A stretch of DNA of 64,000 nucleotides from Clostridia bacterium. Lineage in GTDB: Bacteria > Bacillota > Clostridia > Oscillospirales > CAG-272. Shown here piece after piece: positions 6,136 to 7,992 of the stretch (positions within the stretch are counted from its first letter, which is position 1; every line of letters starts with the position of its first letter). Location: contig JAFTXZ010000008.1 of NCBI GenBank assembly GCA_017461385.1, positions 62,001 through 126,000 of the forward strand, read 5' to 3'. Under the pieces are notes generated by a model. It was not told the origin of the DNA, made no database searches, and was given only the letters and a program-made list of their open reading frames with translations. The translations under genes and the position numbers were made by a program.

Positions 6136-6280
6136 ATTTTCCTCACTCGAATTTTATAATCTTCCTTAATTTTTTGCCAAATAAAGTATATCACCATTAG
6201 TGAATTATTTCAAGACTTTTGCTCTTTTCGAGAGAGTTTTTTAATTAAAACAAATTTTTTACAAAAAACCAAAAAAAGTC

Positions 6281-6309
6281 TTGACAAGCAAATACTCCTG
6301 TGATATAAT
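6281..6309 (+). promoter_or_regulatory. tRNA-operon promoter
   Basis: Consensus TTGACA (6281-6286), a 17-base spacer and TATAAT (6304-6309) with TGTG ahead of the -10 stand 21 bases before the first tRNA. Confidence 0.9.
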
Positions 6310-6330
6310 AAGCAAGCATTGCAAATCAAC

Positions 6331-6406
6331 GGCGGAATAGCTCAGAGGCTAGAGCATCCGGTTCATACCCGGCAGGTCATAGGTTCAAATCCCATTTCCG
6401 CCACCA
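6331..6406 (+). tRNA. tRNA-Met (CAT), elongator-like
   Basis: A 76-base cloverleaf with acceptor GGCGGAA/TTCCGCC, D stem GCTC/GAGC, anticodon CAT at 6364-6366, T loop TTCAAAT and encoded CCA. The G1-C72 pair (initiators are mismatched at 1-72) argues for the elongator form. A tRNA-Ile(CAT) modified by TilS is the alternative. The outermost anticodon-stem pair is a T-C mismatch. Confidence 0.9.
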
Positions 6407-6411
6407 TATTT

Positions 6412-6486
6412 GGCCCGTTGGTCAAGCGGTTAAGACACGGCCCTTTCACGGCTGTAACATGGGTTCGATTCCCGTACGGGTCACCA
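6412..6486 (+). tRNA. tRNA-Glu (TTC)
   Basis: A 75-base cloverleaf with acceptor GGCCCGT/ACGGGTC (one G-T pair), anticodon stem CGGCC/GGCTG around TTC at 6445-6447, T arm GGGTTCGATTCCC and encoded CCA. It follows the Met tRNA by 5 bases and shares its promoter. Confidence 0.95.
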
Positions 6487-6497
6487 AAATAAACCTA

Positions 6498-6530
6498 AAT
6501 CGAACACTTCGGTGTTCGATTTTCGTTTAT
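6498..6530 (+). terminator. tRNA-operon terminator
   Basis: A perfect 10-bp stem (6498-6507 with 6512-6521) with a UUCG tetraloop is followed by a broken T run. Confidence 0.8.
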
Positions 6531-6536
6531 TTATCA

Positions 6537-6627
6537 AAGTCGCAGACTTTGTATGGCATCAGGCGTTAGGCTGTATGGCATCACTTTTATGTGTATGGCA
6601 TCACCGTTAGGTGCTTTTCTGCGACTT
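6537..6627 (+). repeat. left arm: three GTATGGCAT-hairpin units inside a 10-bp inverted repeat
   Basis: AAGTCGCAGA (6537-6546) and its exact reverse complement (6618-6627) enclose three direct copies of GTATGGCATCA at 6551, 6573 and 6593. Each 9-mer GTATGGCAT is followed by a small hairpin of changing sequence: CAG/CTG, CAC/GTG, and CACC-gtta-GGTG (6602-6613). The GTATGG core is complementary to the CCATAC core of the right arm. The array starts 7 bases after the tRNA terminator. I recognise no named RNA family. Confidence 0.8.
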
Positions 6628-6718
6628 GATTCCATACGACACTGTGTGTCAATTCCATACTGCAACAAGTTGCAAATTCCATACACGCTATGCGTGATTT
6701 CATACAATGCTACGCATT
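6628..6718 (+). repeat. right arm: four ATTCCATAC units separated by variable 3-nt-loop hairpins
   Basis: ATTCCATAC occurs at 6629, 6652 and 6676, and ATTTCATAC at 6697. After each comes a perfect hairpin with a 2-3-base loop but a different stem: GACAC-tgt-GTGTC (6638-6650), TGCAAC-aa-GTTGCA (6661-6674), CACGC-tat-GCGTG (6684-6696), AATGC-tac-GCATT (6706-6718). Stems change with paired substitutions while linkers are kept, which points to selection on RNA or single-strand DNA structure. The last hairpin ends 3 bases before the ribosome site of the four-helix-bundle gene. Confidence 0.85.
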
Positions 6719-6733
6719 GATTGGAGGTTAGTT

Positions 6734-7090
6734 ATGGCTAAAAGAAATCTGCTTTTAGAATATAGCGAGGAATTAGCTGTTTGTATAGCTAAGCTATGCA
6801 AGGACAATAAATTTGATTCTAATGTAGTTTTTCAAATAAAAAAGTCGTCTTCGAGTGTGTTTGCTAATATTACAGAGGCACAATACCCTCAAAGTCTTGC
6901 AGACATGCATTCTAAATTTGAAATAGCAAGAAAGGAATGTGCCGAAACTGAAAGCTGGTTAAAGCTTCTCTTTTCTACCGAAGCTATTGATGATATAACT
7001 TTCAAAAAATTGAGAAATCTTTGTGGCAGAATTAAAAGAATGCTCACAAGCTCCTGCATCACAATCGAAAATAAATCAAAGCAAGGTTGA
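6734..7090 (+). CDS. four-helix-bundle protein (S23/Avd-like)
   Basis: This 118-residue, almost all-helical protein has the hallmarks of the 23S-intervening-sequence/Avd four-helix-bundle family: an N-terminal YSEELAVCIAKLCK helix, a SSSSVFANITEAQYPQS turn and an AETESWLKLLFSTEAID segment near residues 73-90. Relatives include Avd, which binds RNA and reverse transcriptase in diversity-generating retroelements; no reverse transcriptase is present here. GGAGG (6723-6727) precedes the ATG at 6734; the longer frame from 6707 would run through the last hairpin. The stop codon lies inside the terminator stem. It is tightly joined to the hairpin array, suggesting the protein acts on that RNA or DNA. 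Confidence 0.8.
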   Translation: MAKRNLLLEYSEELAVCIAKLCKDNKFDSNVVFQIKKSSSSVFANITEAQYPQSLADMHSKFEIARKECAETESWLKLLFSTEAIDDITFKKLRNLCGRIKRMLTSSCITIENKSKQG

Positions 7091-7110
7091 CTTTTCAACC
7101 TTGCTTTTCT
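7079..7110 (+). terminator. terminator of the four-helix-bundle gene
   Basis: A 12-bp stem (7079-7090 with 7095-7106) is followed by TTCTT and overlaps the TGA stop. A very similar GCAAGG/CCTTGC hairpin recurs at 9378-9410. Confidence 0.85.
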
Positions 7111-7152
7111 TACATATACAAGCACACGCCACAGTGCCATTTGATAAAAATT

Positions 7153-7599
7153 TTATTTTCTTAATATTGAACTTAGCAATGCGATAGTCTTTTTTGCTGG
7201 CTTATAAAACGCAAAATATATCGACAATATCAAAAATGTGGCAAACACCAGTGCAGCTAAGAGAAAAACAGGCTCTACAATTCCTATTATTAGTGGAACA
7301 ATAATTGTACCTATGGACCATATTAAACAGAAAATAGATACAAACACACTCAATCGTGCAGTAACATTTATATCGCAGCCTTCATTTTTACTATCTATTT
7401 TTCCAATCAAAACAGGAGTGAATGCATTCCTTACATATTCTTTTGGTCTTTTGCGTATCCTGAATTCATCATCGCTTATCTGCCCAATAAAAACGTCATT
7501 GTCTTTAACTGTTGTATTTGTTATTTCATACAACCTTTGCACAATCTCTTGTTTTGTTAAAGAAGATTCCATCTTGCTTTGTAGTTTTATAAAAAACAT
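7153..7599 (-). CDS. unrecognised two-helix membrane protein
   Basis: This 148-residue protein has a polar N-terminal half (about 1-80, including SDDEFRIRKRPKEYVRNAFTPV) and two long hydrophobic helices near residues 85-108 and 110-133, followed by a basic tail. The N half looks like a small cytoplasmic domain and the layout resembles small PH-like or DUF membrane proteins, but I do not recognise the family. GGGAG stands 7 bases before the ATG at 7599; an upstream extension to 7659 lacks a site. No operon partner. Confidence 0.65.
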   Translation of the reverse strand: MFFIKLQSKMESSLTKQEIVQRLYEITNTTVKDNDVFIGQISDDEFRIRKRPKEYVRNAFTPVLIGKIDSKNEGCDINVTARLSVFVSIFCLIWSIGTIIVPLIIGIVEPVFLLAALVFATFLILSIYFAFYKPAKKTIALLSSILRK

Positions 7600-7992
7600 G
7601 CCACTTCTCCCTTTAATACTTGCTATTTGTATTATACCACACCATATAAAGCATTTCAATATTTTTCGATTTACAATTACCCTTGGCTCACCATAGTATT
7701 ACCAGTCGATCCTTTCGACTGGTTTTACTTTTTATAGGTGATAATTACTTATTTTAACTCAAAGATAGCAGTAAAGCTTCTTTGAGTTATTTTAATTACG
7801 CCAGTAACAAGGTTCGGACAGGTCGAAATGCTATTTTATTTCCCCTTTGCACCTTGTGCTAGGTTCGCAAGAATTGAGTGTTCGGTTCTTATTTCTGTAT
7901 CAAACAAAAGAATGTTCCAATGAAACTATGTTATTGAATTCAAGTGCTTATTATGCTAAAATAAATTAAAGCTTATTTGCGAGGTGATATTT
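7600..7992. other. intergenic region with orphan hairpins and a promoter
   Basis: A terminator-like hairpin lies at 7701-7733 (ACCAGTCGA/TCGACTGGT then TTTACTTTTTA). A 10-bp stem with a 13-base loop lies around 7757-7789 (AACTCAAAGA/TCTTTGAGTT). The promoter at 7934-7962 and the ribosome site at 7981-7986 belong to the next gene. I see no coding potential and cannot explain the stretch 7790-7930. Confidence 0.55.
7934..7962 (+). promoter_or_regulatory. promoter of the GH20-like gene
   Basis: TTGAAT (7934-7939), a 17-base spacer and TAAAAT (7957-7962), with TG one base before the -10. Confidence 0.75.

Follow-up and report, generated by a model that had tools for sequence, protein, structure and literature searches.

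The window analysed here, a stretch of 64,000 nucleotides from a Clostridia bacterium (contig JAFTXZ010000008.1, positions 62,001 to 126,000 of the forward strand), contains a compact element that begins at the 3' end of a tRNA-Glu gene. It comprises a terminator, three GTATGGCATCA linkers with their hairpins (the left array), a middle strand, a right array and a gene for a four-helix-bundle (FHB) protein. We propose, tentatively and at slightly less than an even chance, that this element is a copy of a family of mobile inverted-repeat DNA elements whose S23/IVP-type FHB protein reads the linker-hairpin units; its movement is something that we infer. The right linkers are the reverse complement of the left ones except for one base, and the 5' strand at 6537-6546, within the first hairpin, is able to pair alternatively with 6618-6627. 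The right-hand linker ATTYCATAC occurs nine times in the window against 1.35 expected, a number reached in 0 of 100 shuffles. A first-pass annotation, made from the letters of the window, had described four such linkers alternating with four perfect hairpins and ending at the ribosome-binding site of an Avd/S23-like gene. The array is present as described, with the second right hairpin perfect only if its loop is taken as two or four bases, and the gene is borne out by profile matches to PF05635 (5e-19) and TIGR02436 (2.7e-20). The annotation rightly treated array and gene as one unit, and saw the right half correctly, but missed the left half, that is, the three TGTATGGCATCA linkers and the 5' strand.

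Recurrence of the arrays and their tie to the protein

FHB loci were gathered from the window's genome, related genomes, chosen stretches and 71 loci of named records (mainly ruminant-gut Clostridia), giving 135 distinct loci; an FHB gene was present in 44 of 57 related genomes, from which 30 of these loci were taken. Most of the genomes are metagenome assemblies, and several classifications were made by eye. The same plan is found again ahead of FHB genes, where about a dozen linker words are used, among them the left/right pairs GTATGTAATC/GATTACATAC, GTATATCATC/GATGATATAC, AGTTATATT/AATATAACT, GTGAAATC/GATTTCAC, GCGATAT/ATATCGC and ATGAAG/CTTCAT, in agreement with the first-pass mention of similar arrays in Clostridia; the annotation would have been given up had the arrays not recurred or the linkers been confined to one genome, and they recur in relatives. 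Fixed class patterns, in which a left word had to be accompanied by its right-hand complement, classed 76 of the 132 upstream regions of FHB genes, against 0 of 120 control windows (500-800 nt upstream) and 0-1 per set in ten shuffled sets; as these loci had been viewed before the patterns were written, the result should be judged against those windows and shuffles. A simple scan found 313 perfect hairpins of at least six pairs in 128 array regions upstream of FHB genes, and 15-20 in each of three shuffled sets. Array sequence reappears downstream of the FHB gene in three loci (L175, L165 and L130), and in a fourth, L090, the terminator is found again in that position. Copies of the ladder type were recognised by eye on two gut phage contigs, and a search of a viral contig collection with two FHB proteins found no relative.

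Linker and protein appear to have diverged together. On a FastTree phylogeny of 69 classed FHB proteins (13 of 66 inner branches well supported), the linker label requires 16 changes where the minimum is 15 and the shuffled mean 47.9, and 0 of 200 shuffles gave a value as low. Host descent alone is insufficient to account for this match, since two or more linker classes were present in 11 of the 30 genomes checked (50 loci, assigned to genomes by hand). The FHB gene itself is, from its sequence, under purifying selection, with a ratio of nonsynonymous to synonymous substitution (dN/dS) of 0.02-0.10 among window-clade pairs with unsaturated dS. Among solved structures, sequence profiles place 2RLD nearest (1.5e-26), followed weakly by 2GSC (0.066), and because these relatives have five chains each, the FHB protein is probably a pentamer. 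A test of co-occurrence of class B arrays with FHB genes (p 0.0004) was not used as evidence, some of the counted arrays being part of FHB loci.

Pairing in the arrays

That the hairpin stems vary in sequence and yet keep pairing, as first noted, stands: under a loose class A pattern, 82 of 139 left hairpins and 97 of 164 right hairpins are distinct. The pattern of variation, however, points to DNA, and the accompanying suggestion of a stand-alone RNA-protein element was not supported. In 381 distinct in-register hairpins there are 2064 Watson-Crick pairs, 21 G-T, 14 A-C and 28 other oppositions, so that the excess of G-T over A-C is not significant (p 0.31), whereas 124 tRNAs of these loci have 62 G-T and one A-C in their acceptor stems, a different ratio (Fisher 8e-7); an unregistered mismatch count (GU 21, AC 11, other 32), which lay near the shuffle background, is superseded by the in-register one. 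The loops are polar with respect to the strand: counted per class, as loose linker patterns mix classes, class A has 31 GNA/GNNA, one TNC/TNNC and 41 other loops on the left, and 0, 48 and 50, respectively, on the right, and class B is polar in the same sense (4:1 against 0:6). GNA loops are among the extraordinarily stable DNA hairpins. Extraordinary stability of certain short DNA hairpins is described in PMC10527192. In 31 of 102 loci, compared with 6 of 102 control segments, a promoter-like site separates the last hairpin from the FHB gene. Because wobble is not favoured, the loops are strand-polar and promoter-like sites lie downstream of the arrays, pairing looks to act at the DNA level, and hairpins whose sequence is free can apparently be maintained there. 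Folded as DNA, positions 6530-6735 are more stable than 200 of 200 shuffles (z -4.47); folded as RNA, the same segment has a z of -1.95, and 5 of 200 shuffles are equally stable. Rfam, applied to 6200-7200, gave only tRNA above the gathering score, a FourU-like match at 6681-6740 reaching 23.3 bits against the 60 needed.

Placement at tRNA ends

Among the 128 loci with enough upstream sequence, 86 have the end of a same-strand tRNA gene at most 450 nt before the FHB start, with 17 isotypes and 27 anticodons represented, and two more loci follow tmRNA; by simple arithmetic (34 tRNAs in 1.54 Mb) the chance expectation is at most 1%. At the tRNA-Met/tRNA-Glu locus, compared in 15 genomes, the tRNA pair is conserved and the DNA after the CCA, terminator included, differs in most. 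An array with an FHB gene occupies the place in two of the 15, the window's genome and G006, where the FHB copy is broken by stops; elsewhere the place is taken by fold-back elements, recognised by eye, by an element with a serine recombinase in G012 (L290, Pfam), which by eye has look-alikes at the tRNA-Glu end in G002 and G014, and by others. A type I restriction-modification set (Pfam) lies in G003 between tRNA-Glu and the FHB element, which is preceded by a short remnant of the tRNA end. Since between relatives the terminator changes along with the downstream DNA, it seems from sequence comparison to belong to the inserted DNA; insertion behind pre-existing terminators was considered and dropped for the same reason.

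A second kind of insertion was seen by eye after tRNA genes in L241, L245, L250, L282 and L285; it opens with an inverted, imperfect copy of the 3' end of the tRNA and closes with a direct one, and its ends seem to match the host tRNA.

Arrays lacking an FHB gene

Of the 34 tRNAs found in the window's genome, 30 were inspected by eye; seven of these, the window's own included, are followed by an array, and two of the other arrays (L258 and L248) precede non-FHB genes with no Pfam match. Of 18 class B array loci, leaving out seven copies in G025, two stand before FHB genes, several before other open reading frames, one of which is mutL (L264, Pfam), and the rest have no clear gene. The window's genome also has an FHB-less, one-way array of six hairpins before dusB (Pfam), at a junction that is present twice, identically, in the assembly and is probably a single locus assembled twice. 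Fourteen places were compared by eye with this junction: G008, G019, G015 and G014 have the same two genes with no array between them, other repeat types lie nearby in G016 and G012, with one further upstream in G014, and the remainder have other sequence or other neighbours. FHB-less arrays (L254, L256, L266, L268, L034, L036 and L235) often lead, by eye, into a motif resembling a T-loop, GGTTCAAGTCCATACGAAAACTCC or a variant of it, and a tail similar to AAATATCTTTTTTATAGCC; together these are perhaps the right end of a unit. Several scattered arrays in G025 (L257 and L277-L280) are joined to another repeat, CGGGTCGTCGAGGACGTCGACCCCTACA and its variants.

FHB genes in other bacteria

PF05635 was matched in 35 of 199 genomes of a phylum sample and in 0 of 14 control genomes. 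Two wider sets of loci were compared, namely the best place in each of the 20 top-scoring genomes of that sample, and 18 plasmid loci chosen from non-clostridial records, six out of one set of matches and twelve out of another (13 from Cyanobacteria, two from Chloroflexota, and one each from Bacteroidota, Spirochaetota and Bacillota). By eye the plasmid loci have no hairpin ladders and carry short repeats mirrored across the FHB gene. A 7-mer that occurs two or more times upstream, and whose complement occurs two or more times downstream, was found in 13 of the 18, against 8 of 1587 positions from four plasmids of the set, and under a laxer rule (two and one) in 17 of 18 against 210 of 1587. 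Tested against a null of 304 mismatched pairs, inverted repeats of about 7 nt flanking the FHB gene exceeded the 95% level in 19 of the 20 phylum-sample loci, in 17 of the 18 from plasmids and in one of 38 far windows. Of the phylum-sample loci, three interrupt 23S rRNA and a fourth RNase P RNA, and several of the plasmid copies lie within defence or CRISPR gene sets. The common core of this wider family is an FHB gene with mirror-image short repeats. A literature search, which left subscription journals mostly uncovered, returned no account tying FHB genes to inverted short repeats in general.

It is conceivable, although we think it has only around a one-in-three likelihood, that a superfamily built on an S23/IVP/Avd-type pentamer, with no transposase or reverse transcriptase of its own, underlies the 23S rRNA and RNase P intervening sequences, the cyanobacterial heptanucleotide repeats and the clostridial tRNA-end ladders, its protein reading class-specific repeats and DNA hairpins. 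In that event, Avd of the diversity-generating retroelements would read the target hairpin. S23/IVP proteins are widespread and of unknown function, and their tie to co-evolving inverted short repeats makes them candidate repeat-binding mobility factors; the pairing of an FHB protein with mirror-image repeats in distant bacteria may explain several puzzling bacterial repeat families.

Side observations were made at single loci. In L438 the FHB gene and mirrored short repeats lie inside the RNase P RNA gene, and Rfam RF00010 spans the insertion. In seven plasmid loci (L364, L366, L379, L382, L363, L383 and L385) the FHB gene lies between cas2 and cas1 (two), adjoins cas1, or stands between the DISARM gene DrmD and an MmeI enzyme, between hsdS and hsdR, or between DUF1156 and Swt1-HEPN genes (two). 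In L343 it lies between gyrB and gyrA.

A model of the element and its alternatives

The proposed model is one in which the FHB protein would bind its own linker class beside a hairpin in DNA that is single-stranded or extruded, and would hold the two mirror-image arrays together, possibly so that a replication or repair pathway of the host could copy the unit to a new site. At a tRNA end the inserted unit would supply a new terminator, by which the tRNA would stay functional, and arrays lacking an FHB gene may have been moved in trans or may be relics. Several observations weigh against this model. The FHB protein has no known cutting or joining domain, and no transposition was observed. The locus counts are not independent, because many of the loci are closely related and came from searches for proteins similar to that of the window. 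The class patterns left 56 of 132 upstream regions unclassed, several of which are class A by eye with variable linkers while others have no visible array, and 153 linker intervals did not fold in the hairpin count. About half of the loops are neither GNA/GNNA nor TNC/TNNC, and in the classes other than A and B the polarity is reversed (10:17 against 22:8). Selection for perfect RNA duplexes, or a recent origin of the hairpins, would also lower wobble, and the tie between linker and FHB protein could be plain linkage without binding. G025 has seven near-identical class B right arrays at different sites, and the FHB search gave a single FHB gene there, of another class. In the wider sets the repeats flank the FHB gene, whereas both window arrays sit upstream of it; at the 99% level the inverted repeats pass in only 6 of 20 phylum-sample and 10 of 18 plasmid loci, and direct repeats exceed that level in four and five, respectively. 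Finally, the duplication typical of integration is mostly missing, as only 6 of 80 testable loci have, downstream of the FHB gene, a copy (12 nt or longer) of sequence from the 3' end region of the tRNA, two of these copies being partly A-rich (control mean 0.2 of 71).

Those six copies, exceeding their control, favour a reading that we hold to be unlikely, in which the arrays are structured recombination sites of tRNA-end gene cassettes, moved in trans by a site-specific recombinase, with the FHB gene one cargo among several. The 3' ends of tRNA and tmRNA genes are classic integration sites, a type I restriction-modification set lies at a tRNA-Glu end, an integrase gene adjoins the FHB gene in L384, and other small open reading frames follow class B arrays in several of the 18 loci. 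The serine recombinase element at the same tRNA-Glu end in a relative led us to weigh this reading higher, and the mobile FHB element lower. That the linker class follows the FHB tree, and that FHB genes away from tRNA ends also have inverted repeats, argues against FHB being a mere cargo. A structured RNA bound by the FHB protein, as an RNA-protein element or an RNA-copied retroelement, is in our judgement improbable: stems that vary and still pair, FHB relatives within transcribed rRNA, the partnership of Avd with a reverse transcriptase and the slight excess of G-T over A-C would accord with it, but there is no clear G-U preference, promoter-like sites separate array from gene in 31 of 102 loci, only tRNA passes in Rfam, and no reverse transcriptase (PF00078) was matched in 22 of 28 genomes, among them the window's (75% complete). 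The last result agrees with the first-pass impression of a small mobile element lacking a reverse transcriptase, and a group II or other retroelement was rejected on the same grounds for the window's genome.

The arrays could also be REP-like palindromes spread in trans by a Y1 (RAYT-type) transposase, with the FHB gene hitchhiking. REP/BIME palindromes with RAYT are small hairpins with a conserved foot, occurring as inverted pairs in many copies, which the short inverted hairpins here resemble, and a Y1 transposase was matched in 16 of 28 genomes, the window's included. However, G003, G011, G016 and G036 (96-98% complete), all of which carry arrays, have no Y1 match, none of four linker words was found around 10 Y1 loci, and the hairpin sequences vary inside one element, unlike those of REP, so that this reading is quite improbable. 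One Y1 locus, L353, has three adjacent hairpins of another kind. Very improbable, to our mind, is a cis-regulatory leader that controls expression of the FHB gene or the tRNA, its repeats amplifying merely by slippage; in the window the last hairpin stops just before the ribosome-binding site, and a promoter scan found no plus-strand promoter between array and gene there, but arrays exist without FHB genes and at other sites, and elsewhere promoter-like sites lie downstream of the array. A type III toxin-antitoxin system was rejected, as there is no ToxN-type toxin and only PF05635 passes the Pfam cut-off, and integron attC sites were considered and set aside.

Comparison with known systems

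The 23S rRNA intervening sequences that carry an S23/IVP open reading frame share with the window element the protein family (PF05635/TIGR02436), the combination of inverted repeats with a single small gene, and a scattered distribution. The window element differs in lying at a tRNA 3' end and not in 23S rRNA, in having both arrays upstream of the gene rather than one on each side, and in repeats that carry hairpins of free sequence. In PMC4990558, tandem heptamers upstream of the S23p open reading frame in one species and a 28-bp terminal inverted repeat in the 23S intervening sequence are described, and it is suggested that this S23p is not made in vivo. Heptamers upstream of S23p in one species are thus already in print, and the element joins the S23/intervening-sequence kind as a new form.

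By sequence and structure Avd resembles PF05635, according to PMC10053308. Targets of diversity-generating retroelements use a DNA hairpin with a free stem sequence and a GRNA loop on the sense strand (PMC3240598), and the tie between FHB proteins and repeats suggests a way to ask which factor reads that hairpin, a question left open in that paper. The retroelement target has one hairpin and the window hairpin arrays, with no reverse transcriptase match in its genome; where the target has a G-purine-N-A loop on one strand, class A has strand-polar GNA/GNNA loops, but about half of the loops are of other types.

The heptanucleotide repeats (TAACTGA) of cyanobacteria and Beggiatoaceae, which we take to be of the STRR type, are 7-nt tandem repeats between genes, and no hairpin ladders were seen there. 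The inverted 7-nt repeats that flank FHB genes of cyanobacterial plasmids are like them. A repeat-binding mobile protein has been proposed for these repeats, its identity being left open (PMC4679880), in a paper whose main text lacks the term 'four helix bundle', and the FHB protein is a candidate answer to the published question of what spreads them.

Layout of the element in the window

The coordinates of the element and its neighbours are collected in Table 1. The inverted repeat that overlaps the FHB stop codon is likely the right end of the unit.

Table 1. Features of the element and adjoining tRNA genes, in window positions
Feature	Position	Strand	Basis and remarks
tRNA gene, CAT anticodon, Met type by eye	6331..6403	+	Rfam RF00005; anticodon read off the sequence; neighbour of the element
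tRNA-Glu (TTC)	6412..6483	+	Rfam RF00005, aragorn; element begins at its 3' end
Terminator-like inverted repeat	6487..6532	+	Scan of the window; comparison with relatives
First hairpin, CAAAGTC-GCA-GACTTTG	6535..6551	+	Sequence; similar ones in relatives by eye
Left array, linkers TGTATGGCATCA at 6550-6561, 6572-6583, 6592-6603	6550..6603	+	Repeat scan
Left hairpins 6560-6573 and 6582-6593 (one mismatch each), 6602-6613 (perfect, loop GTTA)	6560..6613	+	Sequence
Middle strand TCTGCGACTTGA, complements the 5' strand	6618..6629	+	Sequence
Right array, ATTYCATAC linkers at 6629, 6652, 6676, 6697	6629..6705	+	Motif scan
Right hairpins 6638-6650, 6661-6674, 6684-6696, 6705-6719	6638..6719	+	Sequence; DNA fold
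FHB (S23/IVP, PF05635) gene, GGAGG at 6723-6727	6734..7090	+	Pfam, TIGR02436, dN/dS
Inverted repeat overlapping the FHB stop codon	7078..7107	+	Minus-strand terminator-like in scan

The DNA that adjoins the element (positions 7118-7660), which includes a small minus-strand gene, also occurs dispersed: sequences matching parts of this stretch, mostly its two ends, are present in 11 of 28 related genomes, the window's included.
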